From the IMG/VR virus record IMGVR_UViG_3300034061_003353, positions 1-21,834 of that record: a DNA stretch of 21,834 nt; one strand, written 5' to 3'. Below, in pieces: positions 8,040-21,834 of this stretch (the stretch's first letter is position 1; each line of letters opens with the position of its first letter). The translations under genes were made by a program, and so were the position numbers. The notes under the pieces are model-generated. The model made no database searches. It saw nothing but the letters and a program-made list of their open reading frames with translations, and had not been told where the DNA came from. The stretch is from a virus.

Positions 8040-10039
8040 GTAAATTTTTAGATACTCAATTTTCAATCACTGGAATTAAAGATTTTAGAACTGATTCTGA
8101 ATTATATTCTAAATATGATCTTGTAGATTATCAATATTATACAGGTAATACCATATATCCATCAGATATATCTGGTTTATTCGCTTGGTTTAAAAGTGAT
8201 GATTTAAATAATTTTGATATAGATTCTTCGGGTAAAATTTCTATTTGGTATAATTCTGCTCCAGGTCATTCAACGGAAAATTTATATAATTATGATACAT
8301 CAGAAACTAAACCAGCATATAATTTTGATGAAAATAATGTAAAGTGCAAAGCTAATGCTGATCTTGGTTTGTATAATCAATTATATCCAAATCCAAGTTC
8401 TCCAAATTTTAGTGGTTTTTTAACTGGAGATAGATGTTGGTTTGTAGTTTATGAATTCGATTCTTTAAGAAAAGGTAGTTTAACAACTCCATCAAATTAT
8501 TATGCTAATTATTCAACAATTATAAATACGGACAATGCAAATACTTCAACAGCATCTACTGGTTTTTTTGGCGTATATGGAAATAATATAGATAATTCAT
8601 TGAATCCAAATGTTTTGGCTGGGTCTCAAGAATTTATAATTGTTGCTAATGATGCTGCACAATTATATCCAACACCATCAACATTGAATTCAGCTTTTTC
8701 TGCTGGTAATTTATTTAATAAAAATATAGTATCAATTTTAAAAAACAATACAACCACTAATTTAAGAATCAGAAATAATGCTTGCGAATTATTAAATTTG
8801 AATACAAATTATTTTGCTAGTGGTTGCGCTAGTTTAAGAATTGGAACTGCTGGCAATGGTCATGGAAATGCTGGTTTAAGCGCTCCTTATAATTATGATG
8901 CTAGTAATATATCGTATTATGAAATAATTGGTTATTCAAAAATGCCAACAGATGAAGAGATTTTAAAATTAGAAAAGTATTTATTTAAAAAATATTTTAC
9001 TAATGAAGATAATTTATATATTGCAAGTCAGAATTTTACTTCAGATAATTATAGTTATGCGCCAATTAATTTAACAGGTTCGCAATATTTAACTAAAGAT
9101 ATTGATAGTTTATTTAATAAAACATATGGTTGTTCATCAAATTTTAATACAAAAGCTATTAAATCAAATTTTGGTGATGGATATTTTTCTAATGTAATAC
9201 CTAATGCAAATAATTTAGTAAGTAATTTTTCTTTAAAATACGATGGTTTAACAGATAAACAAGCTTTTTCTTTGATAGGATTTTTTCAAAATTCTTTTGA
9301 ATATAGCTCTCTTGGTGAGGTAGATTCATATGAAAATGTCTCAATGGATTTATTTTATCCATATAAAGACAATGCTAAAATTTATTTTGAAAATTTAGAT
9401 TATAATTCAATTGATTCTAATATTAATAATATTGTTATAAATTGTACAACAGCATATGATTCTAGTTTAGATTATAAAGGTTATCTTATTACAGATGAAT
9501 CTGCAATAAGACCTTTTATATCTAATAAAAATTATTCGCAGCATGATATAGTTTATTATAATAACGTATCAACATCTGGAGGTTATTATTGGTATACAGG
9601 AAATTCTTCTGCTGTTTTAAATAATACACAAAGTCCAACTGGAGTTAATAGTTTATTTACTAAAAAATTTTATTTTAAACCAGATCTTGATTTTAAAATT
9701 CCATTAAATCCAAGATTTTTAAAAAATGAATATGAAATGACTTCGGTTGCATACGAGCAAGACGGAATAAATAAAAATATCCTTGATTTGTCATTATCTT
9801 TTACGAACAGATCTGATAAAGAAGCTTTTGCGATTTTAAAATTTTTAGATGATAAATGTGGATTTAAACTTTTTGAATTTGTGTTGCCACCGCCTTACAA
9901 TAAGCAGTTAACTTTTTATTGTCCTGAATGGAATCATACATATAAATTTAAAGATAATCATGATATTAATGTAAAATTTTTAGAATTTAAAGGTAATTTA
10001 GCTTCAGATATATATTTTAATACAATAATAAAACTATGA
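8036..10039 (+). CDS. Distal tail protein, lambda gpM-like, duplicated core with LamG/ConA-like insertion, 667 aa
   Basis: Lambda gpM-type proteins link the tail tube to the tip; they are typically far shorter than this one. The C-terminal part (about residues 548-655) has the family look: an EYEMTSVAYEQDGINKN strand pair, then DKEAFAILKFLDDKCG, then FYCPEW. An earlier segment (371-470) repeats it with FGDGYFSNV and DKQAFSLIGFFQNS, so the core is duplicated. Residues 43-322 are a LamG/ConA-like domain, from ISGLFAWFKSDD to MPTDEEILKLEKYLFKKY. Small CBM5/12-like pieces flank it and also separate the two cores (residues 20-36 with 326-345, and 484-545). The protein probably forms a distal tail hub that also binds host glycans. 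It overlaps both neighbours by four bases (ATGA at each end). The gpM-like call is by motif and gene order; the sugar specificity is unknown. Confidence 0.68.
   Translation: MSKFLDTQFSITGIKDFRTDSELYSKYDLVDYQYYTGNTIYPSDISGLFAWFKSDDLNNFDIDSSGKISIWYNSAPGHSTENLYNYDTSETKPAYNFDENNVKCKANADLGLYNQLYPNPSSPNFSGFLTGDRCWFVVYEFDSLRKGSLTTPSNYYANYSTIINTDNANTSTASTGFFGVYGNNIDNSLNPNVLAGSQEFIIVANDAAQLYPTPSTLNSAFSAGNLFNKNIVSILKNNTTTNLRIRNNACELLNLNTNYFASGCASLRIGTAGNGHGNAGLSAPYNYDASNISYYEIIGYSKMPTDEEILKLEKYLFKKYFTNEDNLYIASQNFTSDNYSYAPINLTGSQYLTKDIDSLFNKTYGCSSNFNTKAIKSNFGDGYFSNVIPNANNLVSNFSLKYDGLTDKQAFSLIGFFQNSFEYSSLGEVDSYENVSMDLFYPYKDNAKIYFENLDYNSIDSNINNIVINCTTAYDSSLDYKGYLITDESAIRPFISNKNYSQHDIVYYNNVSTSGGYYWYTGNSSAVLNNTQSPTGVNSLFTKKFYFKPDLDFKIPLNPRFLKNEYEMTSVAYEQDGINKNILDLSLSFTNRSDKEAFAILKFLDDKCGFKLFEFVLPPPYNKQLTFYCPEWNHTYKFKDNHDINVKFLEFKGNLASDIYFNTIIKL
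8162..9001 (+). other. LamG/ConA-like lectin domain inside the gpM-like protein
   Basis: The segment opens with ISGLFAWFKSDDLNN and GKISIWYNSA, has a WFVVYEFD core strand, and closes with ISYYEIIGYSKMPTDEEILK followed by LEKYLFKKYF. This opening and closing pattern is common in concanavalin A-like domains of phage and secreted proteins. It probably binds a polysaccharide; no ligand residues can be assigned. Confidence 0.6.
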
Positions 10040-13032
10040 GTTATGTAAAAACAACTGGAGTTAATATCGGAAATTGTTTAACTGGTTTTGGAATACATTA
10101 TCCTATAACAGTTTTTAATAGTGGTAATGGAGAGGTTTTTTACAATATTCAAAATTCTAATCAAAATAATTTTAGTTTATCTAAAAATAATTTTTCTTTA
10201 ACCGCTGGTGATTATGATGTTTTTGATGTTTTTTATAAACCTACATTGTCAGTTTCTTTAAGTGATGAAACAACAAATTTAACTATCTCATCTGTTTCGA
10301 TAGACGACGGATCAGTAGATCCAAGTGGAGATATTACGGTTAACTTAACTGGATCTAAATTAATTAATATAACTGGTGGAAATCCAAGAGCTTTTAGAGC
10401 GATTGGTGATAGTAAAAATTTAAAATACAATTTCTACTGGAAAGATCCAACAGGAATTTCTGGATCTAATTTAAAAAATTATTTTATTACTGGTTATAGA
10501 TTAGATTTGTCTACGGGTGTAGATTTTACTAGTTTACAAATAAAATATTCTAACGATTTTAATATAGCGGAAAACACTAGTTTAAATCCGAAATTTTCAA
10601 CTTATTATGGATTTAATGATGATGATAGAACTTTTGAATTAAATAGAGATTTATATCCAGATCTAAAAAGTAATCAAAATTATTATGCCAGATTATACAG
10701 TTTAGTTAATAATAATACTGGTGTTTCTGTATATGCAACTGGAATTGATTCGGCTGTTTCTAATTATTCAGATGAAGTGTTAATAGGATATTCTGGAGCG
10801 CCTATAAATATTAAATTAGTTACAAAAGCTTTTGATTTTTATATTAATTTTAGTACTTGGTATAGTTATAGTTATGATTTATACGCTGAAATAATAAAAC
10901 AAAATGGCGGCAATGATTTTTCAGCTTATTCAGGAATAAATATTTATTTGCCAGAAAGAAGTGTTTTTGAATCAAGAGATACAAATGTTGGAGCATTAAA
11001 ATTAGATGGTGTATTTAATAATCTAACTGGAGATGGCAGTACGTTTATAAATATATACGTTCCATATAACACAGAGTTGAAAGGAAAGTATGGAGATGGT
11101 ACTAATGTTTATTATGAAAAAGGCATGGAAAAAGAAGGTAATGCAGCTTATGATGGTAATTTTGTTCCTAAAGAACCAGCAGTGCTTTTAAATCTTTCTG
11201 CAACTAATAATGGTACAACTCCAACTGATCCATTGAAAGCTTATAGTGATACAACAAATGGTGGTCCATGTATAACATTAAAAGCGCGAACAAATTTAGG
11301 ATCAAGCATAGGAGAGAGAACGGATATAAAATATAATATATATAGCCAATTGCCAAATATAAACAAAACTTTAGATTTGGGATATGGAATAAAATGTGAA
11401 CCAAAATTTGGTGCTGGTAGTGGAGGCGGAAAAGGTGGATTTGTTTATATGTATGTATTTGTAACATTTTATCCATTTTTTGATACTATAAGCGCAGATA
11501 GTAATTTGATATATCAAGTTATTCCTTTTAATGGTACTTATCCAAAAGGATATGCTGATGATACGACAGTTAATCGAAAATATTGGTATTATTATATTTA
11601 TTATGGTGAAGAAAGTAGAGTTTATGTTAATGCAAAAGAAGGTTTTTTAAATTTTAATAGACATGCTTATAATATTAGTAGCGCATTTGCAGATGCTGGC
11701 GAATTTGGTTCTGCATATTTAGAATATCAAGAAGTTAACAAAAATAAATATTATTTTCCTTATTCTAGCATTGATGGTTCTATTCCTAGCTCAAATGTTC
11801 AGCTATCGTATACTATAATAAAAGATGCATTGAGATGGTTTCCTTTTAATAAAAATTTAAATAATAGACAATCTGGATATCTTATAGATTCGCTTTCGAA
11901 CGCCAGTGTTAATTACAGTTTATATAATAAAAATCTTGCTTCTGATTATGTATTTAGATTCAATCAAAGTGGAATATCAAGCGCAATAAGTTGGTCTGGT
12001 TCTGGATCTTATACTCTTGAAAATACAACAGAATTTAATCAAGGAACTTACATATCAAACTATAAAAATTTAGGATCTTCATCTTATAAAGCAGTTAATT
12101 TAAAAAACAATCAATTTCTAAAATTGAATTTTACTGCAAGTACTTCTTTTAATGATTTTGATTTATTTTTTGTATGTAGTTTTGATGATTTTGCATCTAC
12201 TGATAATGATATTTATTGTTCTGTTTTCGATTGGTATTTAAATGAAAATAATATAACCAGTAATCAGTTTAATATTAAAAATTTTGAAACCCTATTAAAG
12301 ACGCCCTTTCCAAAAGAAAATGTTTCATTTAATTATAATAATACATGTTTGACTAATTTAAAAAATGTTTCTACACCCACTGATTATGGAAAAAAGATTT
12401 CTAAACAATTATATATTAGATCTAAAGTATCTAATATAGATACAACTACTAATATAATAACAACGTCTACTAATCATAATTTACAAAATGGAGATACTAT
12501 CTGTTTTTATGCTGATACATTACCATCTCCTATAGCTAGTTATGATCCAGTTTCTCCATATGCGCAAGATAAAAATATTTATACTGTATCAAACGTTACG
12601 GCCAATACTTTTAAATTAGGAACATTAGATATAACTACAGTTGGAAGCAACGTTTATATAGAAAAAATTAAATCTGATGCTTTATATAGACCATTTATAT
12701 TACAAATAAGAAGAATAGGTAATACTTATGCTTATTATATTAATAGAACATTTGTTGATCAAATAACTCCACAAAATTCTTTATTAAATGATTTAAAAGA
12801 TACAACTTTAAAATTAATTAATAGAAATGCTACTATAGGTATTAATTATTTTGATGTAGCTTTTTATAAGAGATTATTGTCAGAATCAGAACTGAATTCA
12901 GCGTATGCATATTATGTTGATTATTATATGAGTCTATTTAGTGGAGAAACTAATTGTACTAGTATTAATTTAAAATCTGATTTATATAGTTTCAGATTGC
13001 CAAATATTTTTAATTTAGCAGGAAAGTCATAA
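10036..13032 (+). CDS. Large multidomain tail-tip protein (Ig-like, FN3-like, LamG-like), 998 aa
   Basis: No single family covers this protein. Residues 10-108 resemble an ASH/Hydin-type Ig domain (FNSGNGEVFYNI, FSLTAGDYDVFDVFYKP, ITVNLTG). Residues 118-240 look FN3-like (YNFYWKDP, FITGYRLDL, YYARLYSL). Residues about 255-600 are a Tyr/Asn-rich region with a glycine loop (FGAGSGGGKGGF) and are unassigned. Residues 690-965 look LamG-like, ending FDVAFYKRLLSESELNSAYAYY. That domain is interrupted by a compact module at 795-862 (NHNLQNGD ... YTVSNVTANTFKL). The gene overlaps the gpM-like gene by ATGA and ends one base before the gpL-like gene, so it belongs to the tail tip. An adhesive or glycan-binding accessory is the likeliest role. 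An enzymatic function in the central region cannot be excluded, but I see no catalytic motif. Confidence 0.55.
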   Translation: MSYVKTTGVNIGNCLTGFGIHYPITVFNSGNGEVFYNIQNSNQNNFSLSKNNFSLTAGDYDVFDVFYKPTLSVSLSDETTNLTISSVSIDDGSVDPSGDITVNLTGSKLINITGGNPRAFRAIGDSKNLKYNFYWKDPTGISGSNLKNYFITGYRLDLSTGVDFTSLQIKYSNDFNIAENTSLNPKFSTYYGFNDDDRTFELNRDLYPDLKSNQNYYARLYSLVNNNTGVSVYATGIDSAVSNYSDEVLIGYSGAPINIKLVTKAFDFYINFSTWYSYSYDLYAEIIKQNGGNDFSAYSGINIYLPERSVFESRDTNVGALKLDGVFNNLTGDGSTFINIYVPYNTELKGKYGDGTNVYYEKGMEKEGNAAYDGNFVPKEPAVLLNLSATNNGTTPTDPLKAYSDTTNGGPCITLKARTNLGSSIGERTDIKYNIYSQLPNINKTLDLGYGIKCEPKFGAGSGGGKGGFVYMYVFVTFYPFFDTISADSNLIYQVIPFNGTYPKGYADDTTVNRKYWYYYIYYGEESRVYVNAKEGFLNFNRHAYNISSAFADAGEFGSAYLEYQEVNKNKYYFPYSSIDGSIPSSNVQLSYTIIKDALRWFPFNKNLNNRQSGYLIDSLSNASVNYSLYNKNLASDYVFRFNQSGISSAISWSGSGSYTLENTTEFNQGTYISNYKNLGSSSYKAVNLKNNQFLKLNFTASTSFNDFDLFFVCSFDDFASTDNDIYCSVFDWYLNENNITSNQFNIKNFETLLKTPFPKENVSFNYNNTCLTNLKNVSTPTDYGKKISKQLYIRSKVSNIDTTTNIITTSTNHNLQNGDTICFYADTLPSPIASYDPVSPYAQDKNIYTVSNVTANTFKLGTLDITTVGSNVYIEKIKSDALYRPFILQIRRIGNTYAYYINRTFVDQITPQNSLLNDLKDTTLKLINRNATIGINYFDVAFYKRLLSESELNSAYAYYVDYYMSLFSGETNCTSINLKSDLYSFRLPNIFNLAGKS
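12418..12621 (+). other. Nested H-x-L-x-x-GD module inside the LamG-like domain of the 998-aa protein
   Basis: Residues 795-862 read as a short beta module: SNIDTTTNIITT, then NHNLQNGDTICFY, then IYTVSNVTANTFKLGT. This pattern (a strand, H-x-L-x-x-GD, then YTV...ANTFKL) recurs as a mobile insert in phage and surface proteins. It splits the flanking LamG-like sequence, whose end resumes near RPFILQIRRIGNTYAYYI. Confidence 0.5.
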
Positions 13033-13033
13033 T

Positions 13034-14143
13034 ATGAAAACATTTTTTAAACTAAATAATTATGTAGTTTTTGATTTATATGAATTAGAATTAGAATCAA
13101 CGGAGGGTTATTTACGTTTTCATGGTTCTAAAAATTTTTCTAAAAATATAGTTTTTCAAGGCCAGGAATATGTTTTTATACCTTCTGAATTGTCTAATTT
13201 ACAAGCTTCTTCAGATGGAAAACAATCTAAACCGACATTAAAAATTGCTAATATAAATAATTATATATCGTACATACTAAAAGATCGCAAAGATTTAATA
13301 GGCAAACAGTTCATAAGAAAAAAAATTCTTGGTAAAGATTTAGATACTGTTAATTTTACTGATGGCATAAATCCATTTGGAGTTTCATCATTTAAAACTT
13401 ATATAGCTTATGATAAATTTTTGATAAATATGAAAAAATCTGAAAATAAAGAGTTTGTTGAATTGGAGTTAGCTACTAAAATTGATATTCAGAATTTGAC
13501 TATACCAGCAAGAAAAATAACTAATGATACTTGTTCATGGGGTTATCGTTGTTATGGATGTAACTATGGAAATACTCCTGATTATAGAGGCCCAAATATA
13601 ATAGATGGTTTCAATGATTTAAGTGCTGGCTTAAAAGAAGATGGTGTTAATTATCTTAAAAATTATGGAATGCTTAATAGTTCATGGTGGTTTAGTAAAG
13701 TATGGGGAAATGTTTCAGATATTGGAGTTCCAATAGCTGATGAAAACAACAAAACATTTTTAAAGACATATAAAAAAGAATTTAATTTGCAAAATGAAAC
13801 TTATGGTTTAGAAAAATTAACTTATAAAGGAAGATGGGATAAATCAATAACTTATTCGCAAGGAGATTTTGTTTATTTAGATTATATACCTAGTGTACCA
13901 ACTGATTTAAAAAATGATTTCGTATTAAATTCTAATAATAAACAGAAAAATTTTTATGTTTGCGTGTCTTCTAGCGTTTTAAATAAACAACCTGATCTTA
14001 ATACAGATATTTGGAAACAAGATAAATGCTCTAAAACTCTTAAAGGATGTTTGTTAAGATTTCAAGATTATTTGACTCAGCCTAATGGAAAATTGCCATT
14101 TGGAGCTTTTCCTGCAACATTTCCTTATGATAATAAAAAATAA
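13034..14143 (+). CDS. Minor tail protein, lambda gpL-like, with Cys cluster and inserted CBM5/12-like module, 369 aa
   Basis: Lambda gpL family proteins sit in the tail tip and hold an iron-sulfur cluster through cysteines. Residues 1-165 match the family's N-terminal beta domain in position and style. The cysteine groups are CSWGYRCYGC (C167, C173, C176) and CSKTLKGCLLRF (C332, C339), followed by LPFGAFPATFP, a strong family hallmark. In this protein the two groups are about 155 residues apart rather than close together. The insert contains a CBM5/12-like module (residues 266-328: W268, TYSQGDFVYL, NFYVCVSSS, W327). The extra C310 lies in the insert. The ATG follows the upstream stop by one base; AGGAAAG about 10 bases upstream is the only Shine-Dalgarno-like sequence among these genes. 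The stop overlaps the JAB gene. Confidence 0.8.
   Translation: MKTFFKLNNYVVFDLYELELESTEGYLRFHGSKNFSKNIVFQGQEYVFIPSELSNLQASSDGKQSKPTLKIANINNYISYILKDRKDLIGKQFIRKKILGKDLDTVNFTDGINPFGVSSFKTYIAYDKFLINMKKSENKEFVELELATKIDIQNLTIPARKITNDTCSWGYRCYGCNYGNTPDYRGPNIIDGFNDLSAGLKEDGVNYLKNYGMLNSSWWFSKVWGNVSDIGVPIADENNKTFLKTYKKEFNLQNETYGLEKLTYKGRWDKSITYSQGDFVYLDYIPSVPTDLKNDFVLNSNNKQKNFYVCVSSSVLNKQPDLNTDIWKQDKCSKTLKGCLLRFQDYLTQPNGKLPFGAFPATFPYDNKK
13829..14017 (+). other. CBM5/12-like (chitin-binding type) module inside the gpL-like protein
   Basis: It spans residues 266-328. It shows the W-x(n)-TYSQGDFVYL start, an aromatic strand NFYVCVSSSVLNKQP, and a closing W in DIWKQ. This is the usual layout of the small carbohydrate-binding modules 5/12. 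It resembles SQHDIVYY and SKYDLVDY in the gpM-like protein. The ligand is unknown; glycan binding is inferred. Confidence 0.5.
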
Positions 14144-14459
14144 TTTATTATTGGAAATCAAAAATTATTGCAAATCAAATCCAACCGAAGAAACGTGTGG
14201 TTTTATAGTCGAGTCAGATAATGATTTAATTTTTATACCAGTAGAAAATAAGCATTTAGATAAGAAAAATTATTTTTTAATTTCTCCAAAAGATTATTTA
14301 GAAATTAAAAAGAAATACAAAATAATATATTTTTTTCATAGCCATTTATCTAATCCTTCATTTTCTAAATTAGACATTTTATATCAAAGATATCATAATA
14401 TAAATATGCTTATGTATAATATAGATAGCGACGAAATACTGGAAAGAAAGTGTAATTAA
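14127..14459 (+). CDS. JAB/MPN (JAMM) metalloprotease-like tail protein, gpK N-domain only, 110 aa
   Basis: Lambda gpK has a JAB peptidase-like domain plus a NlpC/P60 cell-wall hydrolase domain; only the JAB part is present here. The JAMM zinc ligands are visible: E22 in PTEETCGF, H71 and H73 in FFHSHLSNP, S80 and D83 in SKLD. The HSH-to-D spacing is one residue shorter than usual. I chose the ATG at 14127, which puts the conserved Glu about 20 residues from the N-terminus, as usual. An in-frame ATG at 14085 would add 14 residues lying wholly inside the gpL-like gene and is less likely. The start overlaps the upstream gene by 17 bases, so coupled translation is likely. It lies four bases before the gpI-like gene. 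It probably helps tip assembly or acts on the tip; proteolytic activity is unproven. Confidence 0.8.
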   Translation: MIIKNNLLLEIKNYCKSNPTEETCGFIVESDNDLIFIPVENKHLDKKNYFLISPKDYLEIKKKYKIIYFFHSHLSNPSFSKLDILYQRYHNINMLMYNIDSDEILERKCN

Positions 14460-14463
14460 CTAT

Positions 14464-15033
14464 ATGGTTAATGTAAAATTACATGGTATATTTGAAAATT
14501 TAATTGAAACCGATTGGAATTTGAATGTTAAATCTATTATAGAAATATTTCAAGCGATTGAAGCAAATACTGGTAAACTTATATCTACATTAGGAAATAT
14601 GAACGAATATATAAGTCACTTTATGATTTATGTTGATAATAAAATTGTATCTCCAGAATATTTACATTCTCCAATTTTGAAACAAAATTCAAAAGTTGAA
14701 ATTATTCCATTAATATTAGGTTCTGCTGAACAAATTATAATTGGTTTGGTATTATTAGCTATATCTACTGGAATTCAAATGTTGATAACTCAGATATTAT
14801 CTCCTAAATCGCCAACTGATATAAAAACAGTTTCTAGATTATTTTCAAACTATGAAAACGTAACTTTAAGAAATGTAGCTATTCCAATAGGTTATGGTAG
14901 ATTAAGAATAGGATCTATTGTAATTAGTAATCAAATATCTTTTAACATATACGCAGGAGATGAAACAACTAGTGAAGCATCATTATTAGTAGCTAAAGAA
15001 TTAGGAGCTTTGCCAATCGCGTCTAATCCATAA
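14464..15033 (+). CDS. Tail assembly protein, lambda gpI-like, 189 aa
   Basis: Lambda gpI is needed for tail-tip assembly with gpJ and gpL. Residues 1-82 look like a ubiquitin-like beta-grasp domain ending in the typical VEIIPLILG. A strong hydrophobic helix follows (residues 88-112, IIIGLVLLAISTGIQMLI). The C-terminal part has the family's conserved NVAIPIGYGRLRIGSIVIS (138-156). Length (about 190-220 usual) and order between gpK-like and gpJ-like genes agree. The membrane-like helix may contact the host membrane during DNA entry; that is inference. It starts four bases after the JAB stop with TAT before the ATG and no Shine-Dalgarno. Confidence 0.85.
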   Translation: MVNVKLHGIFENLIETDWNLNVKSIIEIFQAIEANTGKLISTLGNMNEYISHFMIYVDNKIVSPEYLHSPILKQNSKVEIIPLILGSAEQIIIGLVLLAISTGIQMLITQILSPKSPTDIKTVSRLFSNYENVTLRNVAIPIGYGRLRIGSIVISNQISFNIYAGDETTSEASLLVAKELGALPIASNP

Positions 15034-15044
15034 TAAGTATTAAA

Positions 15045-18000
15045 ATGACAATTCGTTTACAAGAAAAAACATCTAATTTTTTAAGAAGAACACTACAATC
15101 AGCTAAAAATCCTTCTTATGAAACAGAATCATTTTATTCTTCTACTGATCTTTTGTGCGAAGGGCCAATAGAGGGTTTTGCAAATAAAAATGGCGAAACA
15201 GTTGGTTATTTAGAAATTAATGATACTTTATCAACTATAGGAACATCTATATATTATAATAATATACCAGTTGTAGATTCTAAAACAAATTTATTTAATT
15301 TTTCTCAAACTCAAATCTCTTTTGACACTGGAACAGAGAGAAAAAAAGGTTCTTATATTGCATCAAACGTATTTGAATATAAAAATAGAATATACGATAT
15401 ACCAAAAGCTATTATAGTAAAAAATACTTTAATTAAAGAACCGGCTAATTATTCTCAAGATAAAACTAAATCTGGTTTTGATGTAGTAACATTCAAATCA
15501 AATGATTCTAATATAAGACAGGATTTAAAAAATTATATTAATTATAAAAATTATAGTAATCCAGTAAGTCATCGTGTTGCTAATAGATATGCATCGTTTT
15601 TTCAATTTTCAATAAGTATTGATAATTTATATTCAATAAGTGGCAATGATACAGCGGTGGCTCCTATTAGTTTTATTATTGAAGCTCAAAATTTAACGAC
15701 ACAAACTTCATCGTATTTATATTTTAATGGATCTTTTGTGGCTAAAGGAGGAGCATTAATTTTACCGTTTGAAATATTTTTAAATAATGCCGATGGAGAT
15801 TATGCCGTAGATCCATTTCCTGATGTTAATTTAATAGTTTATAGTTTGAGAGAATCAGTGCTTTCAAGTACTTCTGTTTTTAGATCATTTTCTTTAGATT
15901 CAGTAGTTGAAGCGGTTTCTTACATTTTTGGTTATCCTTATTCTAGCACTGTTAATACGACAATAAGTTCAAGACATTTTAATGGAATTCCAACTAGATC
16001 TTATGATTGTAAATTATTAAAAATAAGAGTTCCTGATAATTATGATGGTGAAAGCAGGGAATATATTGATAATTGGTCAGGAAACTTTAATGTTAGCCTA
16101 AAATGGACTAATAATCCAGCTTGGGTATTTTATGATTTATGTATTAATAGCAGATATGGAATGGCTAGAGGACATATCAATGAATTAGATTTAAATAAAT
16201 GGCAATTTTTGACATTGTCTAAATTTTGCGATGAATTGGTAAAAACTAATTCTAGAACAAAATATAGTGAAGATTTATTTACTTATGACAATAGTATTCA
16301 ATATGGTCAAGTAAATTATAATACAATTTCATTTACTACAACAGAAACTGTATTAGAAAATTTACAACAAAAATATCCTGTTGGATCTATTTTATATATT
16401 TATAATTTAAAAAATATATATGATGAAAACGTTGATTACAATTTTAAAAAAATTATTTGTTCTGTTTCTTTAAATGGTTCGACTGCAACAATAAAATTAT
16501 GCAATGATTTTGGTCCAAGAAGAATATTAGAAAATGATTTAAGTGGAAATTTATTTTTAGAATTGACGAAATATGTTAAAAGAGATCCTTCTAAAAATAT
16601 TGAAAGCGAAATTAAATTATTTATTTTAAAATATATAATCGGCGATAAAAGTTTAGGATTATCTTTTTCTACGCAAGACGAAGCTATTAGTAAAAATCAA
16701 ATGAAATTAAAAATATTTGATACTTCGTTAAATATATCTAAAGGATCTTGCGTTGCAAAGCATCCAGAATATGATGATTATCTAGAGCCAAGGTTTTCTT
16801 GTAATGTATTAATAAATAACGATGTAGAGGGATTAAAAATACTATCGGATTTATCTTCGATATTTAGAGGCATATTCTATTTTAAAAATGGTCTTTTAAA
16901 TTTAACTTCAGATGTTAGACAAAAACCGGTTTATATTTTTTCTAATTCAAATGTAAAAGATGGTCTTTTTACATACGCGTCTTCAGATTTAAACACTTCG
17001 TATTCAGTAGCAAAAATTCCATATTTAGATAAATATGATAATTTTAAAGATAAAATTGTATATGTTGAAGATCAAGATTTGGTCAAAAAATATGGAATCG
17101 TTGAAAAAGATATTTTAAGTTTTGGCGTAACTAGCAAATCTGAAGCTCAAAGAATTGGTCGTTGGTTCTTAGCTACTGGTAAATTAGAATCGGAAGTTAT
17201 TGGATTTTCGACTGGTTTAGAAGCGACAATTTTGCAAGTAGGTAATATAATAAGAATATCAGATGAATTAAAAAATTCTAATATTGTTTATGGGAAAATA
17301 ACTAAATTAGATTTTGAAAATGATTATATATATGTTGATAGAGAAGTATCTGAAATATGTTTAGGAAAAAATATAAAAATATTTTCTTTAATAAATGATG
17401 AGCCAGTTGAATTAGATTTTACATTAATAGAAATAGATAATAACAACTTAAGATTAAAAATATTTTCTCATGCTTATATGAGTTGGTTTATAGTTAATAA
17501 TATAAACGTTTCTGATAATGGATTGATTTTACAAGCTAATACTGTTGCAGGAGATAACAGTTGGAACAAAAAAGCTTATACTAATAATAGTTTTGTTGAT
17601 AATTGTCAAATTTCATACAAATCTGATTTTGCAGCTGCCGATCAAAATGTTGTAGGTTTATCTGCAATTAAAAATACATCAAAAAATCAAAATGATATAA
17701 ATTATGGTTTTTATATTGTTGGTGGAAGTTTATATATTATACAAAATGGTTCGGTAACTAGTGTTTATTCTGGATATGGATCTGTAACAGCAGATGATAT
17801 TTTAAAAATAACTTATGATGGAAGCTATATCAGATATTATAAAAATGGTGTTTTAGTTGCTGATCCTGTTGGCAGATCAAAAGGAGATGCTTTATATGGT
17901 GTTGTAGCTTTATATCAAACTTTTAGCAAAATAAGCGATTTAAGCTTTTCTGTTTTTCCTGATATAGTTTATGGTCAATATTCTAATTTAAGATCAGGAG

Positions 18001-18596
18001 CTAATTTTTCTATTTATATTAATGAAAATGATTCTAATTTTGATTTATTTAAAATTATTAGTATAAATGAAGTTTCAGCAAATGAATATGCTATATCAGC
18101 AATGAAATATCAGCAAGAAAAATTTAATATAATAGATAAAGATGAGTATGTAGATGAAGCGCAAAATAGACCAAAAGAAATTGTTTTTTCAACTGATAAT
18201 ATTGTTAATGAGTTATTTACCGATAATCAGATAAGTCAGTATGTTCAAACAAAATCTATTAATTACGCATCTATTTCAACGTCGAGTTATGACTATAGTT
18301 TTTTAATAGAAGAAGAAATATTAAATGATGATTTTTTTAATGCAAAATATGAGTATTTGACGGTTGATTTTATTTCAATGTTTAATAATTTAATAACAAC
18401 AAGAAGAATTGATAATGTGTTTGGAATAATGTGTATTATAAACAAAAATGGAAAATCATTAAATTTTAATATATTAAAAGAAGATGCTCGTTTAATTAAA
18501 ATTTTTCTCGGCGAATCATTAGCTGGAAATATATCAGCAAAAACATCGATTGATCTTTATGCTTTTGATTTAAATTATAAAATAATTAATGTGTAA
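15045..18596 (+). CDS. Tail tip host-specificity protein, lambda gpJ/TipJ-like, 1183 aa
   Basis: This is the central hub and spike that closes the tail tube and contacts the receptor. Family signatures appear in order: DLLCEGPIEGF (35-45), IYYNNIPV (69-76), TNNPAWVFYDLCINSRYG (355-372), KFCDELV (393-399), EPRFSCNVLIN (581-591), VEDQDLVKKYGI (674-685), and RIGRWFLATGKLESEVIGF (703-721). Two stretches exceed the usual core. About 170 residues separate CDELV from EPRFSCN (about 404-578). A ConA-like domain is inserted at about 810-970 (SWNKKAYTNN, ITYDGSYIRYYKNGVLV) before the core resumes with LFKIISINEVSANEYAISAMKY. It lies 11 bases after gpI and 8 before the fibre gene. The end lacks lambda's long fibronectin series, which may instead be supplied by the next gene. 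Confidence 0.9.
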   Translation: MTIRLQEKTSNFLRRTLQSAKNPSYETESFYSSTDLLCEGPIEGFANKNGETVGYLEINDTLSTIGTSIYYNNIPVVDSKTNLFNFSQTQISFDTGTERKKGSYIASNVFEYKNRIYDIPKAIIVKNTLIKEPANYSQDKTKSGFDVVTFKSNDSNIRQDLKNYINYKNYSNPVSHRVANRYASFFQFSISIDNLYSISGNDTAVAPISFIIEAQNLTTQTSSYLYFNGSFVAKGGALILPFEIFLNNADGDYAVDPFPDVNLIVYSLRESVLSSTSVFRSFSLDSVVEAVSYIFGYPYSSTVNTTISSRHFNGIPTRSYDCKLLKIRVPDNYDGESREYIDNWSGNFNVSLKWTNNPAWVFYDLCINSRYGMARGHINELDLNKWQFLTLSKFCDELVKTNSRTKYSEDLFTYDNSIQYGQVNYNTISFTTTETVLENLQQKYPVGSILYIYNLKNIYDENVDYNFKKIICSVSLNGSTATIKLCNDFGPRRILENDLSGNLFLELTKYVKRDPSKNIESEIKLFILKYIIGDKSLGLSFSTQDEAISKNQMKLKIFDTSLNISKGSCVAKHPEYDDYLEPRFSCNVLINNDVEGLKILSDLSSIFRGIFYFKNGLLNLTSDVRQKPVYIFSNSNVKDGLFTYASSDLNTSYSVAKIPYLDKYDNFKDKIVYVEDQDLVKKYGIVEKDILSFGVTSKSEAQRIGRWFLATGKLESEVIGFSTGLEATILQVGNIIRISDELKNSNIVYGKITKLDFENDYIYVDREVSEICLGKNIKIFSLINDEPVELDFTLIEIDNNNLRLKIFSHAYMSWFIVNNINVSDNGLILQANTVAGDNSWNKKAYTNNSFVDNCQISYKSDFAAADQNVVGLSAIKNTSKNQNDINYGFYIVGGSLYIIQNGSVTSVYSGYGSVTADDILKITYDGSYIRYYKNGVLVADPVGRSKGDALYGVVALYQTFSKISDLSFSVFPDIVYGQYSNLRSGANFSIYINENDSNFDLFKIISINEVSANEYAISAMKYQQEKFNIIDKDEYVDEAQNRPKEIVFSTDNIVNELFTDNQISQYVQTKSINYASISTSSYDYSFLIEEEILNDDFFNAKYEYLTVDFISMFNNLITTRRIDNVFGIMCIINKNGKSLNFNILKEDARLIKIFLGESLAGNISAKTSIDLYAFDLNYKIINV
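17472..17954 (+). other. ConA-like lectin domain inserted in the gpJ-like protein
   Basis: It covers residues about 810-970. It starts with AYMSWFIVNNINV, continues with CQISYKSDF and NYGFYIVGGSLYII, and has the typical ITYDGSYIRYYKNGVLV hairpin before LYGVVALYQTFSKISDLSFSV. Flanking residues fit the gpJ core, so the domain looks inserted. Glycan binding is likely; specificity is unknown. Confidence 0.55.
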
Positions 18597-18604
18597 TTAG
18601 ATAT

Positions 18605-21600
18605 ATGGCATTTTTACAAAATCTTGAAGTAAATTATAACGATCCATTTTTAGTTAAAAATTTATATTTTAACTTTGATAATAATTTATCTACTTATGAT
18701 AAGTCTATATCAGCAGAAAGTATTGGATTAGATGCGTCTGTTGATTTTGTAAGTGGTTCTATAAGGCAAAGTTCTATTGATTTATTTTGGCAATTAGAAA
18801 GACCGATAACAAAAAATTTATTATCGGGTTATATTATTGATGATGGTTTTTCAGGATTTTTGATAAATTATTACGATAAGAATAGAAATTTTCTATATCA
18901 AGATCCAGAAGTTCTATATACAACAGAATATTCGAAAACTAGCGAGCAAATTTCAGGAATTTTTACATTACTAACGGGGCAAAATAATTTATCAGAACTA
19001 AATGAATTTTTTATTGATGTCGTTTGCGTTAGTAATAGTGGATTTTATAATAATGGTTTTTATAATACAGGAGTTTCTTTAGTAAACTTTACTAATTCAA
19101 GTTTATCGATATCTTCTATTTATTTTGATACAAATATATCTATAAATTTAAATTTATCAGACGCTAAATCAATAAAAGAACTTGATGTTTTTGTAACTAA
19201 AGATCCTGATTTTACAGTTGCAAGTGGTAATTATTTATATACAAATAAATATTTTTATCCTTCTTTTGATAATATAACTGTACCAATAATATCTACAAAT
19301 GATAAAGAATCTGATTCGCTTGCTAATAATAGCATTAAAATTCCTTACTATGTTCATTTATTGTCATCCAATTATTTCAGTACAGGTCAATTAACAACAT
19401 CATCTGGAATAAAACCGCCTTCTTATGATCAAAATTATTTTCCAGATAAGATTAATGGAGTTACTGGGTATGTTTATTATGATTTCAACGATACGTCTAA
19501 AGATTTAAATTTAAATGCTTTTATAAAATGGAACTCTGTTGAAGTAACAGAAAATTGTAACTTTCATATATTGGTAGAAGAAAGTGGAAAAAATAAAACT
19601 AAATATGATTACTTTTTAAATAATAGAACGGCTGAAAATATAATAAATGCTTTACCGGGGACGGGAACAGGTTTAGTTTTTACAGGCACGATATTTTCTA
19701 ATTATGGATCTTCGGGATTACAATGGGTAGATCATACTATTTATGTAGATGATATAGGTTCTTTTCCTAGCGGTTTTTTTCCACAATACACGGGCGGATT
19801 AAAATATATATCGGAAATAAGAATTCCATCTGGCTACTCAAATAATAACGAAGTATTTTTATCCTATAATTATACTGGTGATAATAAATTTAGTTTTTTA
19901 CCATCTGGAGGATATTATGAAAATAATATATATACGGGTTCATATTCTAATGCTAGATATTTAAATAATACATCTTTAAATAATACAGGATTAACTTATC
20001 TAGGCGAGTTTAATACTGGGGTTTGTATAGCTAAAAGAATAACAGGATTTGCTGATTTTGTATATCCAACATTTGATCCAAGCTTTATATTTCCAATTAA
20101 CGAAGGAAATGACTATTTTGTCAAAGTTCGCGCAATAAATACAGATGAAGTTGTGTCAGAATTTTCTGATACTTTATTTATTAGTTCTGGATATATAAAT
20201 CAAGCAATAAATTTTAGTCCATTAAGTGGTAAAAAAGTAATTGATGGTTCTGGTATTAGTGGTTATATACCAGTATTTTCCGATTCAGATAGTTTAACAA
20301 CAGGCACATTATATTATAGTGGAAGTAATAATATTGTTTTTACTGAATTACCAACAACAACTACTACTGCAACTCAGTATTTAGTAATTGAAAATAATAT
20401 AATAAAAAAACAAATTGGATCTGGAAGCGGTGGTTCTGGTGGAAGTAGCGGAACATCTGGAACTTCAGGATCTTCTGGTTCTTCTGGCAGTAGTGGAAGT
20501 AGCGGATCATCTGGATCTTCTGGAAGCAGTGGATCAAGCGGTTCATCTGGCAGTAGTGGATCAAGCGGTTCATCTGGCAGTAGTGGATCAAGCGGTTCAT
20601 CTGGCAGTAGTGGATCAAGCGGTTCATCTGGCAGTAGTGGATCAAGCGGTTCATCTGGAACTAGCGGTTCTTCTGGAAGTAGTGGATCATCTGGAAGTAG
20701 TGGATCAAGCGGTTCATCTGGAACTAGCGGTTCTTCTGGAAGTAGTGGATCTTCTGGAAGCAGTGGATCATCTGGAACTAGCGGTTCTTCTGGAAGTAGT
20801 GGATCATCTGGAAGTAGTGGATCAAGCGGTTCTTCTGGAAGTAGTGGATCTTCTGGAAGCAGTGGATCAAGCGGTTCTTCTGGAAGTAGTGGATCATCTG
20901 GAAGTAGTGGATCGAGCGGTTCGTCTGGCAGTAGTGGATCATCTGGAAGCAGTGGAACAAGTGGTCAAGCTGGCGGAGTAAGATATAATTTTTCAAATAG
21001 TACTGTAGATGCTGATCCAGGCGATGGAATATTAAGATATAACAATGCAATTTTTGCAAGTATAGATTATATTTTTATAGATAATGTAGATCAATTAAAT
21101 AACAATCAGTCAGCATGGTTTAATACTTGGGATGATAGTACTACAACAAGTGATCGTGGTACAATAACTATTTATAGTAGAGATTCAGGAAATATAGTTA
21201 ATCAATTTTCAATAGATGGTAACGTTTCTGCATTAAGCGGATATTATAGAATAAAAGTTGCTCCTATAGCAGGTACTATACCTAGTAATGGAGCATTATT
21301 AGCTATAAGTTTTTCTAGAACAGGAAATTCTGGATCAAGTGGAAGCAGTGGTTCATCTGGAAGTAGTGGATCATCTGGATCTTCTGGAAGCAGCGGATCA
21401 AGTGGAAGAAGTGGATCTTCTGGTAGTAGTGGAAGTAGCGGATCATCTGGAACTTCAGGATCTTCTGGTTCTTCTGGCAGTAGTGGAAGTAGCGGATCAT
21501 CTGGATCTTCTGGAAGCAGCGGATCAAGTGGATCATCTGGATCTTCAGGATCTTCTGGTTCTTCTGGCAGTAGTGGAAGTAGCGGATCATCTGGATCTTC

Positions 21601-21834
21601 TGGAAGCAGCGGATCAAGTGGAAGAAGTGGATCTTCTGGTAGTAGTGGAAGTAGCGGATCATCTGGAACTTCAGGATCTTCTGGTTCTTCTGGCAGTAGT
21701 GGAAGTAGCGGATCATCTGGATCTTCTGGAAGCAGCGGATCAAGTGGATCATCTGGATCTTCAGGATCTTCTGGTTCTTCTGGCAGTAGTGGAAGTAGCG
21801 GATCATCTGGATCTTCTGGAAGCAGCGGATCAAG
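18605..21834 (+). CDS. Tail fibre with FN3-like N-region and Gly-X-Y (GSS) collagen-like tracts (3' partial)
   Basis: The frame stays open from ATG 18605 to the window end: at least 1076 codons. Residues 1-600 are beta-rich. Near residues 440-530 an FN3-like end is seen (NEGNDYFVKVRAINTDEVVSEFSD split around 500), and a linker (LPTTTTTATQYLVIENNIIK) leads to the repeats. Residues 613-789 are 59 uninterrupted Gly-X-Y triplets, mostly GSS with some GTS and one GQA. Residues 790-906 form a globular domain (YNFSNSTVDADPGDGILRYN, WFNTWDDST, LAISFSRT). From 907 a second Gly-X-Y tract runs out of the window. The layout suits a trimeric side or central fibre attached to the gpJ-like hub 8 bases upstream. 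Proline-free collagen-like repeats would form a weak triple helix or a flexible stalk. The receptor-binding tip is beyond the window. Confidence 0.82.
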   Translation, partial: MAFLQNLEVNYNDPFLVKNLYFNFDNNLSTYDKSISAESIGLDASVDFVSGSIRQSSIDLFWQLERPITKNLLSGYIIDDGFSGFLINYYDKNRNFLYQDPEVLYTTEYSKTSEQISGIFTLLTGQNNLSELNEFFIDVVCVSNSGFYNNGFYNTGVSLVNFTNSSLSISSIYFDTNISINLNLSDAKSIKELDVFVTKDPDFTVASGNYLYTNKYFYPSFDNITVPIISTNDKESDSLANNSIKIPYYVHLLSSNYFSTGQLTTSSGIKPPSYDQNYFPDKINGVTGYVYYDFNDTSKDLNLNAFIKWNSVEVTENCNFHILVEESGKNKTKYDYFLNNRTAENIINALPGTGTGLVFTGTIFSNYGSSGLQWVDHTIYVDDIGSFPSGFFPQYTGGLKYISEIRIPSGYSNNNEVFLSYNYTGDNKFSFLPSGGYYENNIYTGSYSNARYLNNTSLNNTGLTYLGEFNTGVCIAKRITGFADFVYPTFDPSFIFPINEGNDYFVKVRAINTDEVVSEFSDTLFISSGYINQAINFSPLSGKKVIDGSGISGYIPVFSDSDSLTTGTLYYSGSNNIVFTELPTTTTTATQYLVIENNIIKKQIGSGSGGSGGSSGTSGTSGSSGSSGSSGSSGSSGSSGSSGSSGSSGSSGSSGSSGSSGSSGSSGSSGSSGSSGSSGSSGSSGTSGSSGSSGSSGSSGSSGSSGTSGSSGSSGSSGSSGSSGTSGSSGSSGSSGSSGSSGSSGSSGSSGSSGSSGSSGSSGSSGSSGSSGSSGSSGSSGSSGTSGQAGGVRYNFSNSTVDADPGDGILRYNNAIFASIDYIFIDNVDQLNNNQSAWFNTWDDSTTTSDRGTITIYSRDSGNIVNQFSIDGNVSALSGYYRIKVAPIAGTIPSNGALLAISFSRTGNSGSSGSSGSSGSSGSSGSSGSSGSSGRSGSSGSSGSSGSSGTSGSSGSSGSSGSSGSSGSSGSSGSSGSSGSSGSSGSSGSSGSSGSSGSSGSSGSSGRSGSSGSSGSSGSSGTSGSSGSSGSSGSSGSSGSSGSSGSSGSSGSSGSSGSSGSSGSSGSSGSSGSSGS
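20441..20971 (+). repeat. Gly-X-Y tract 1 (59 triplets, GSS-rich)
   Basis: Exactly 531 bases of 9-base units encode G-X-Y with X and Y nearly all Ser, some Thr, and a last GQA. At DNA level it contains several shorter tandem units, including the 27-base repeat. Serine codons alternate between TCN and AGY types. Confidence 0.95.
20522..20656 (+). repeat. 27-bp tandem repeat, four exact copies plus one variant
   Basis: The unit is GGC AGT AGT GGA TCA AGC plus GGT TCA TCT (9 codons, three GSS triplets). Exact copies start at 20549, 20576, 20603 and 20630; a variant copy starts at 20522 with GGA AGC AGT. All copies are in frame within the fibre gene. Confidence 0.93.
20972..21322 (+). other. 117-residue fibre domain between the two Gly-X-Y tracts
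   Basis: It begins GGVRYNFSNSTVDADPGDG and includes YIFIDNVDQLNNNQSAWF, NTWDDSTTTSDRGTITIYS, YYRIKVAPIAG and LLAISFSRT. I recall a similar beta domain (D-x-DPG-x-G, SxW...WDDST, SFSRTG) in collagen-like phage tail proteins. It is probably a trimerising or binding node on the fibre shaft. Confidence 0.6.
21323..21834 (+). repeat. Gly-X-Y tract 2 (GSS-rich, runs off the window)
   Basis: It starts GNS GSS directly after the 117-residue domain and continues in phase to the last base. Triplets are nearly all GSS, with GRS and GTS once per 216-bp unit. Confidence 0.93.
21404..21834 (+). repeat. Perfect 216-bp tandem repeat (copy 2 truncated by the window end)
   Basis: The 216 bases from 21404 to 21619 (24 Gly-X-Y triplets, 72 residues, beginning GGA AGA AGT) recur without a mismatch from 21620 to 21834, the last 215 visible bases. 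Inside each unit a sub-repeat recurs at 90 bases (for example the segments from 21458 and 21548). The identity shows a recent in-frame duplication or an ongoing expansion. Confidence 0.95.

Follow-up and report, generated by a model that had tools for sequence, protein, structure and literature searches.

The tail hub encoded by a 21,834-base virus record (the whole stretch of DNA analysed here, called the window) carries two added segments in its body that differ in kind: segment 1 follows the core of the hub, whereas segment 2, predicted to be a SPRY-like domain of ConA fold, is an exchanged cassette. Related phages exchanged this cassette at the DNA level between otherwise close hubs, giving it a history unlike that of the rest of the gene. 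Taking the observations together, and by analogy with known phages, we consider it fairly probable that this nested domain is a lateral module for binding the host surface, probably its glycans, and that it is exchanged by homologous recombination.

The J gene encodes a gpJ-type hub that stops shortly after HDIV

The J gene (15045..18596, plus strand; coordinates written with two dots refer to this strand throughout) encodes a protein of 1183 aa. Its product matched the Pfam family Phage-tail_3 at residues 598-744 (E 2.7e-15) and PHROG family 31, 'central tail fiber J' (E 2.1e-83), and phmmer aligned it with five distinct gpJ-like sequences of solved structure (T1, F2 pyocin, lambda and others; E 1.4e-47 to 1.8e-30). 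When a structural model of J was compared with the PDB using Foldseek, the top matches were tail-tip chains of lambda and T1 (E 2.7e-33 and 6.9e-33, respectively), and VIA-align superposed model residues 12-1044 onto residues 12-608 of lambda gpJ (several chains; Z 18.7-22.3). Since the whole-model VIA-align rows mainly span residues 459-995, the absence of such matches outside ~459-995 is uninformative. The L-K-I-J gene order of the window is that of a lambda-like tail tip. Altogether, sequence homology and gene order identify J as a gpJ-type siphophage hub. Its predicted fold comprises HDII, HDIII and HDIV with an OB insertion, the domain names being taken from PMC10721106 and PMC11101478 (papers given by PMC number are cited here and below for the portions of their text that were available).

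In lambda gpJ, a beta-sandwich formed by residues 483-569 is inserted between two strands of HDIV (PMC10721106); it is named OB in PMC11101478. From this position and the alignment with lambda gpJ, the first half of the OB-type domain of J was placed at residues ~741-808 (17265..17468), and alignments and the model placed its second half at residues ~974-1000 (17964..18044), all these borders being approximate. Beyond HDIV, lambda gpJ goes on into FNIII domains, a shaft, a fibre and a receptor-binding domain (PMC11101478). The alignment of J with lambda stops near lambda residues 604-608, and these lambda parts are replaced by a short C-terminal part of ~142 aa (residues 1042-1183; 18168..18593), with no same-chain FNIII pair, fibre or receptor-binding domain as in lambda. 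Because only these ~142 aa follow HDIV, J is a gpJ-type hub but not one of the lambda subtype.

Upstream of J, the window encodes a tape-measure-like protein (PHROG 339, E 1.1e-4), then a minor tail protein, a 998-aa protein (an ORF at 10036-13032), a gpL homologue (13034..14143; Pfam and PHROG), a gpK-like (JAB) protein (14085..14459; Pfam and PHROG) and a gpI-like protein (14464..15033; PHROG 32, tail assembly protein). The C-terminal third of the 998-aa protein looks LamG-like by eye, with no Pfam support. The lambda counterpart of the gpL homologue is the partner of the hub, with HDI and an Fe-S domain, and its cysteines are Cys173, 182, 205 and 212 (PMC10721106). The window protein keeps the 9- and 7-residue spacings of lambda (C167/C176 and C332/C339), with a middle gap of 156 rather than 23; ~133 aa are thus inserted within the Fe-S domain, separating its two halves. 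This insertion, the third in the hub complex, also splits the match to the Phage_tail_L profile and resembles a CBM5/12 module by eye, with no Pfam match. Downstream of J, the ORF list and relatives revealed a fibre-like gene that is still open at the window end (18605..21834). Long (Gly-Ser-Ser/Thr-Gly)n repeats make up its Gly/Ser-rich region and keep other frames on both strands open as well; among the loci searched, 75 have relatives of its N-terminal part, and its total length varies.

Segment 1 is shared by a wide clade while the site of segment 2 can be empty

Site lengths were taken between conserved flanking blocks in 43 hubs: the J proteins of 8 named phages, chosen from 40 listed matches, and 35 of the 37 A2 rows. 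The J proteins, 92 in number, had been reduced to 39 by merging rows at least 90% identical. Left out beforehand were L001 (the window itself), ORFs shorter than 850 aa and L105 (same contig as L126), in which a frameshift near residue 571, real or a sequencing error, divides J between two overlapping ORFs. A2 also excludes L027, L029 and L032, which are over-long.

The original prediction, made from the sequence, had described two insertions in the hub body: about 170 residues between CDELV (residues 395-399) and EPRFSCN (residues 581-587), and a ConA-like domain near residues 810-970. Site lengths and fold confirmed two in-frame added segments at these places, and the flanking-block site lengths agree with the coordinates proposed for both; against lambda-like hubs, the claim of two insertions holds. 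Site 1 measures 177 aa in the window and 3 aa in 8/8 named hubs, so ~174 aa are added there. It spans 160-182 aa in 31/31 rows of the wider clade in A2, including L097 and L023/L025 (25% identical), and is 10 aa long in L026 and 3 aa in L028, L033 and L034. Site 2 measures 257 aa in the window and 250-263 aa in all 27 complete ConA-bearing hubs (window included). Its length is 99 aa in L097, 126 in L101, 124 in L023/L025, 131 in L026 (weak block match) and 78-87 in 7/8 named hubs, several of them with weak block matches. The value of 191 for the eighth named hub, L164, comes from an unsupported block match (E 6.3) and is not reliable, and the site 2 blocks had no match in L028, L033 and L034.

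The closest view of an empty site came from L097/L098, a hub 45% identical to J: overlapping local alignments jump from window residue 806 to 948, and the ConA-like domain is gone from the aligned sequences while the flanking OB strands are kept. The ConA segment is also absent from L101 and L023/L025. The core tree places L097, weakly supported (61), as the sister of the cassette bearers as a whole; given this placement, one gain of the cassette after the L097 split is likely, a loss less so. The J ORF of L101 has its first 40 residues identical to those of L079, the remainder being far more distant, so that L101 may be a chimera, a recombinant or the product of an N-terminal exchange.

Homologues carrying the same segments as part of a common core would argue against insertion as originally proposed. 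This is partly the case for segment 1, which is found throughout the wider clade, down to 25% identity, and whose pairwise identities track those of the J core (Spearman rho 0.82), but not for the ConA segment, given the hubs listed above that lack it, 7 of the 8 named ones by site length. Segment 1 (residues ~403-579; 16251..16781) is predicted to be a compact domain: when modelled alone it reached a mean pLDDT of 93.2 and a pTM of 0.88, with strands that possibly form a small beta-barrel, plus helices. Fold matches were weak, with a best E of 0.02 in Foldseek, 0.028 in BFVD and 0.027 in a PDB profile search. VIA-align gave 7w1c_B as best overall (Z 6.2), and several of the weak matches are phage tail proteins, such as residues 92-172 of T5 pb9 (Z 5.4, rmsd 2.7, 75 aligned). 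An OB-type beta-barrel is a candidate for this fold. Pfam gave no family for the window member and, among 33 members, single-member matches only. The fold of segment 1 is that of no recognised lectin. We read segment 1 as a clade-specific structural domain that stays outside the cassette exchange and, judging from domain order, probably sits in or near HDII.

Segment 2 is predicted to be a SPRY-like domain nested in the OB domain of HDIV

Segment 2 (residues ~809-973; 17469..17963) was modelled with block pLDDT values of ~83-93. Its best VIA-align match was the SPRY domain 5jiu_A (Z 16.0, rmsd 3.6, 167 aligned), followed by 4x8n_A, also SPRY (Z 15.8, rmsd 2.8, 153 aligned, model residues 810-975); SPRY-type matches for residues ~810-975 had Z values of 13.6-16.0 and a Foldseek E of 1.3e-7. 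The model thus predicts a ConA-like beta-sandwich of SPRY topology, SPRY/B30.2 being a subclass of the ConA-like superfamily. As the Pfam SPRY profile matched 0/27 cassette members at E up to 1, we call the cassette 'SPRY-like' by its predicted fold and do not file it in the SPRY family; a PDB profile search with the cassette gave SPRYD7 as best match at an E of only 0.26. Since phmmer aligned J residues ~741-1000 to the place of the OB insertion in HDIV of lambda gpJ, the ConA-like domain sits in a domain that is itself an insertion.

Among cassette members, 10 columns are invariant (W, C, G, S, D, N, A, P, Y and R), with no invariant Glu. Loops vary a little more than strands (mean entropy 1.77 vs 1.49, p 0.036); a textbook binding site would have sharply hypervariable loops, and this slight contrast counts against a binding role.

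We also searched for the cassette outside hubs. A tblastn search of 50,697 phage records (E up to 1) with each segment of J from the window gave no match, and the cassette members L050 and L062 matched Cellulophaga phages only, in 5 records each. A cassette profile run over the ORFs of the window and 105 loci gave matches only in J ORFs, and in 45/45 newly fetched loci (of 54 found by the ConA search, a pattern-started scan of limited reach) the cassette shared its ORF with the J core. The cassette of L050 is 32% identical (E 6e-7) to gp15 of Cellulophaga phage phi13:1 (L156:5662-7542; PHROG 19691), a virion protein supported by mass spectrometry. This protein also matches tail-fibre and collagen-like families, and for this reason we set aside the 'head and packaging' label that PHROG gives to family 19691.

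The cassette has been exchanged between otherwise close hubs

Trees and correlations were computed for 27 hubs (351 pairs), leaving out L017 and L021, whose contigs end inside the cassette, and 8 A2 hubs without a cassette. Cassette identity correlated with core identity with a Spearman rho of 0.48, as against 0.76-0.82 for segment 1, residues 121-284, residues 285-402 and the C-terminal part; the median pairwise identity is 38% for the cassette and 66% for the core. In AU tests on the 27 hubs, each of the 7 other region trees was rejected by the cassette data (368-424 lnL), and the cassette tree by each of the 7 other data sets (165-589 lnL); among the non-cassette regions, lnL differences were 1-144, many of them formally significant too. 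The cassette tree groups L076+L083+L090 (99) and L037+L050+L060+L062 (99), whereas the core tree groups L047+L048+L049+L076+L096 (99), L080+L083+L090 (100) and L002+L004+L037+P0001 (100).

The breakpoints can be seen in the DNA. L080 and L082, which are 99-100% identical to each other and come from different metagenomes, are ~91-99% identical to L090 on either side of the cassette and 54-78% inside it, the very start of the gene also being lower (75-89%). Compared with L002, the window is 78-86% identical before the cassette, 53-68% within it and 88-92% just after it. L004 and L017 go from mostly 60-80% identity upstream to near-identity from codons ~808-812, a breakpoint that may be chimeric since the L017 contig ends inside the cassette.

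Neighbouring genes served as controls. The 998-aa protein, gpL (rho 0.70), gpI and the first 200 aa of the fibre tracked the J core (rho 0.70-0.88 overall), whereas gpK (14085-14459; rho 0.38) and fibre residues 201-560 (0.55 and 0.39) tracked it poorly. From this low value, gpK may also be exchanged, and the cassette is one of several exchanged tail-tip parts rather than a unique one.

A proposed lateral module for attachment

Because J stops ~142 aa past HDIV, recognition of the host must be in the cassette, in other tail proteins (the downstream fibre, for example) or in both. At the top of the hub, HDI and HDIV form a pseudo-hexameric ring (PMC11101478), and within this ring the cassette is hosted by the OB insertion that HDIV carries (PMC10721106, PMC11101478), so the cassette would be lateral. 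We propose that the OB domain in a lambda-type HDIV loop itself received a SPRY-like ConA-fold domain, and that three copies per tail project sideways from the hub top ring. The cassette may then serve for attachment, reversible or accessory, to ligands on the host surface (polysaccharide most likely), and phages could swap it by homologous recombination in conserved flanks, a swap that would alter surface specificity without rebuilding the hub. For the OB or Ig domains that decorate tail proteins, contact with cell-surface carbohydrate has been proposed (PMC10038345), and precedent makes glycan binding by the cassette plausible.

SPRY domains are mostly protein binders, in eukaryotes, and we therefore rate the glycan ligand below the reading as a whole. 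The same background is what makes a docking or decoration domain conceivable, one that has another protein of the virion (side fibre or collar) as its ligand, is exchanged together with this partner and never touches the host. Residues 201-560 of the adjoining fibre gene are mosaic as well, which would suit such a pair, but the cassette correlates with the downstream fibre stretches at a rho of only 0.47, 0.40 and 0.30 and with the other tested neighbours at 0.10-0.56, so that no partner in the window co-varies well with it. L097-type hubs, which manage without the domain, count against docking and also against a binding role; on balance, we regard docking as unlikely. An enzyme that cuts surface polysaccharide (a ConA-fold glucanase or lyase) is much less probable still, since the ConA-like superfamily includes glucanases but the best listed fold matches of the cassette are non-enzymatic SPRY domains and none of its 10 invariant columns is a Glu. 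That there was no exchange at all, and that fast evolution (suggested by the low cassette identity) or chimeric metagenomic contigs (L017, the suspicious L101) produced a false tree conflict, is the least credible explanation, given that residues 121-284 are even less conserved (median identity 34%) and yet track the core (rho 0.76), that the conflicting cassette clades are supported at 97-99 and that the L080/L082 mosaic was recovered from two metagenomes.

We thus favour a lateral binding module, and the original interpretation as a whole is partly supported. A bolder version, in which a hub without a distal receptor-binding end leaves host range to be set chiefly by an exchangeable SPRY-like cassette on the shoulder of the hub ring, traded by recombination at the domain border, is offered tentatively and seems to us somewhat doubtful. 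A pattern-based scan of cellular genome contigs with A1, of limited reach, gave 11 pattern stretches and 0 relatives, and hence neither a prophage nor a pointer to the host. The usual places to look for host-range modules are the distal tip and the side fibres; this cassette is instead nested in an insertion of the hub body. Homologues with an empty site and clean natural recombinants amount to a natural experiment on lateral hub domains in adsorption, and the cassette is a possible marker of attachment specificity in uncultured siphophages.

Comparison with known systems

The hubs of lambda (gpJ) and T1 (gp33) (PDB 8iyk, 8k35, 8xcg, 9l9p) share with J the HDII-HDIII-HDIV scaffold and, in lambda, the OB/beta-sandwich insertion in HDIV; unlike J, they lack segment 1 and the SPRY-like domain, and lambda goes on into FNIII, fibre and receptor-binding domains. 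The hub of Salmonella phage Jersey, gp32, is also gpJ-like without a lambda-type C-terminal antireceptor, and its inserted domain HDII-ins3 is proposed as the antireceptor (PMC13243795). That proposal rests on AlphaFold and concerns an Ig-like fold inserted in HDII, and exchange is not reported in the available portion of the paper.

In phages of Gram-positive bacteria, 'evolved' Dit proteins carry inserted carbohydrate-binding or catalytic modules, as do 'evolved' Tal proteins within their gp27-like hub domain; the Tal insertion projects away from the trimer axis, and the CBMs of evolved Dits bind the host at lower affinity than the RBP (PMC7291167, PMC9437275). Like an evolved Tal, J has an added domain inside the hub body. 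Folds and sites are different there (in the Brussowvirus Tal, lysin modules between sub-domains 3 and 4; PMC7291167, PMC9437275), and the hub here is of gpJ type.

Similar folds occur on other virion proteins. A fibre protein of mycobacteriophage Douge (8zdq_v, chain residues 694-878) matched the cassette in VIA-align (Z 13.7, rmsd 3.0, 150 aligned). The CTD of this CFP (689-878) has a CBM-like fold and belongs to a glycan-binding region, recombinant CFP-tip-CTD binding mycobacterial cells and glycan fragments (PMC13033339); unlike the cassette, it is C-terminal on a central fibre and not nested in a hub. ConA-fold domains, including SPRY and LamG, are found on tail fibres and other virion components of jumbo phages, hub insertion not being reported in the accessible text (PMC7824862). 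The sequence relative of some cassette members, gp15 of phi13:1, is likewise a fibre-like virion protein and not a hub. Among the papers listed by literature searches on SPRY/ConA-like or inserted binding domains in phage hubs, none was recognised as reporting this arrangement. Inserted binding modules in hubs are already known, and what appears new, as far as these searches reach, is the SPRY-like predicted fold, its nesting in the OB domain of HDIV and its exchange as a cassette.
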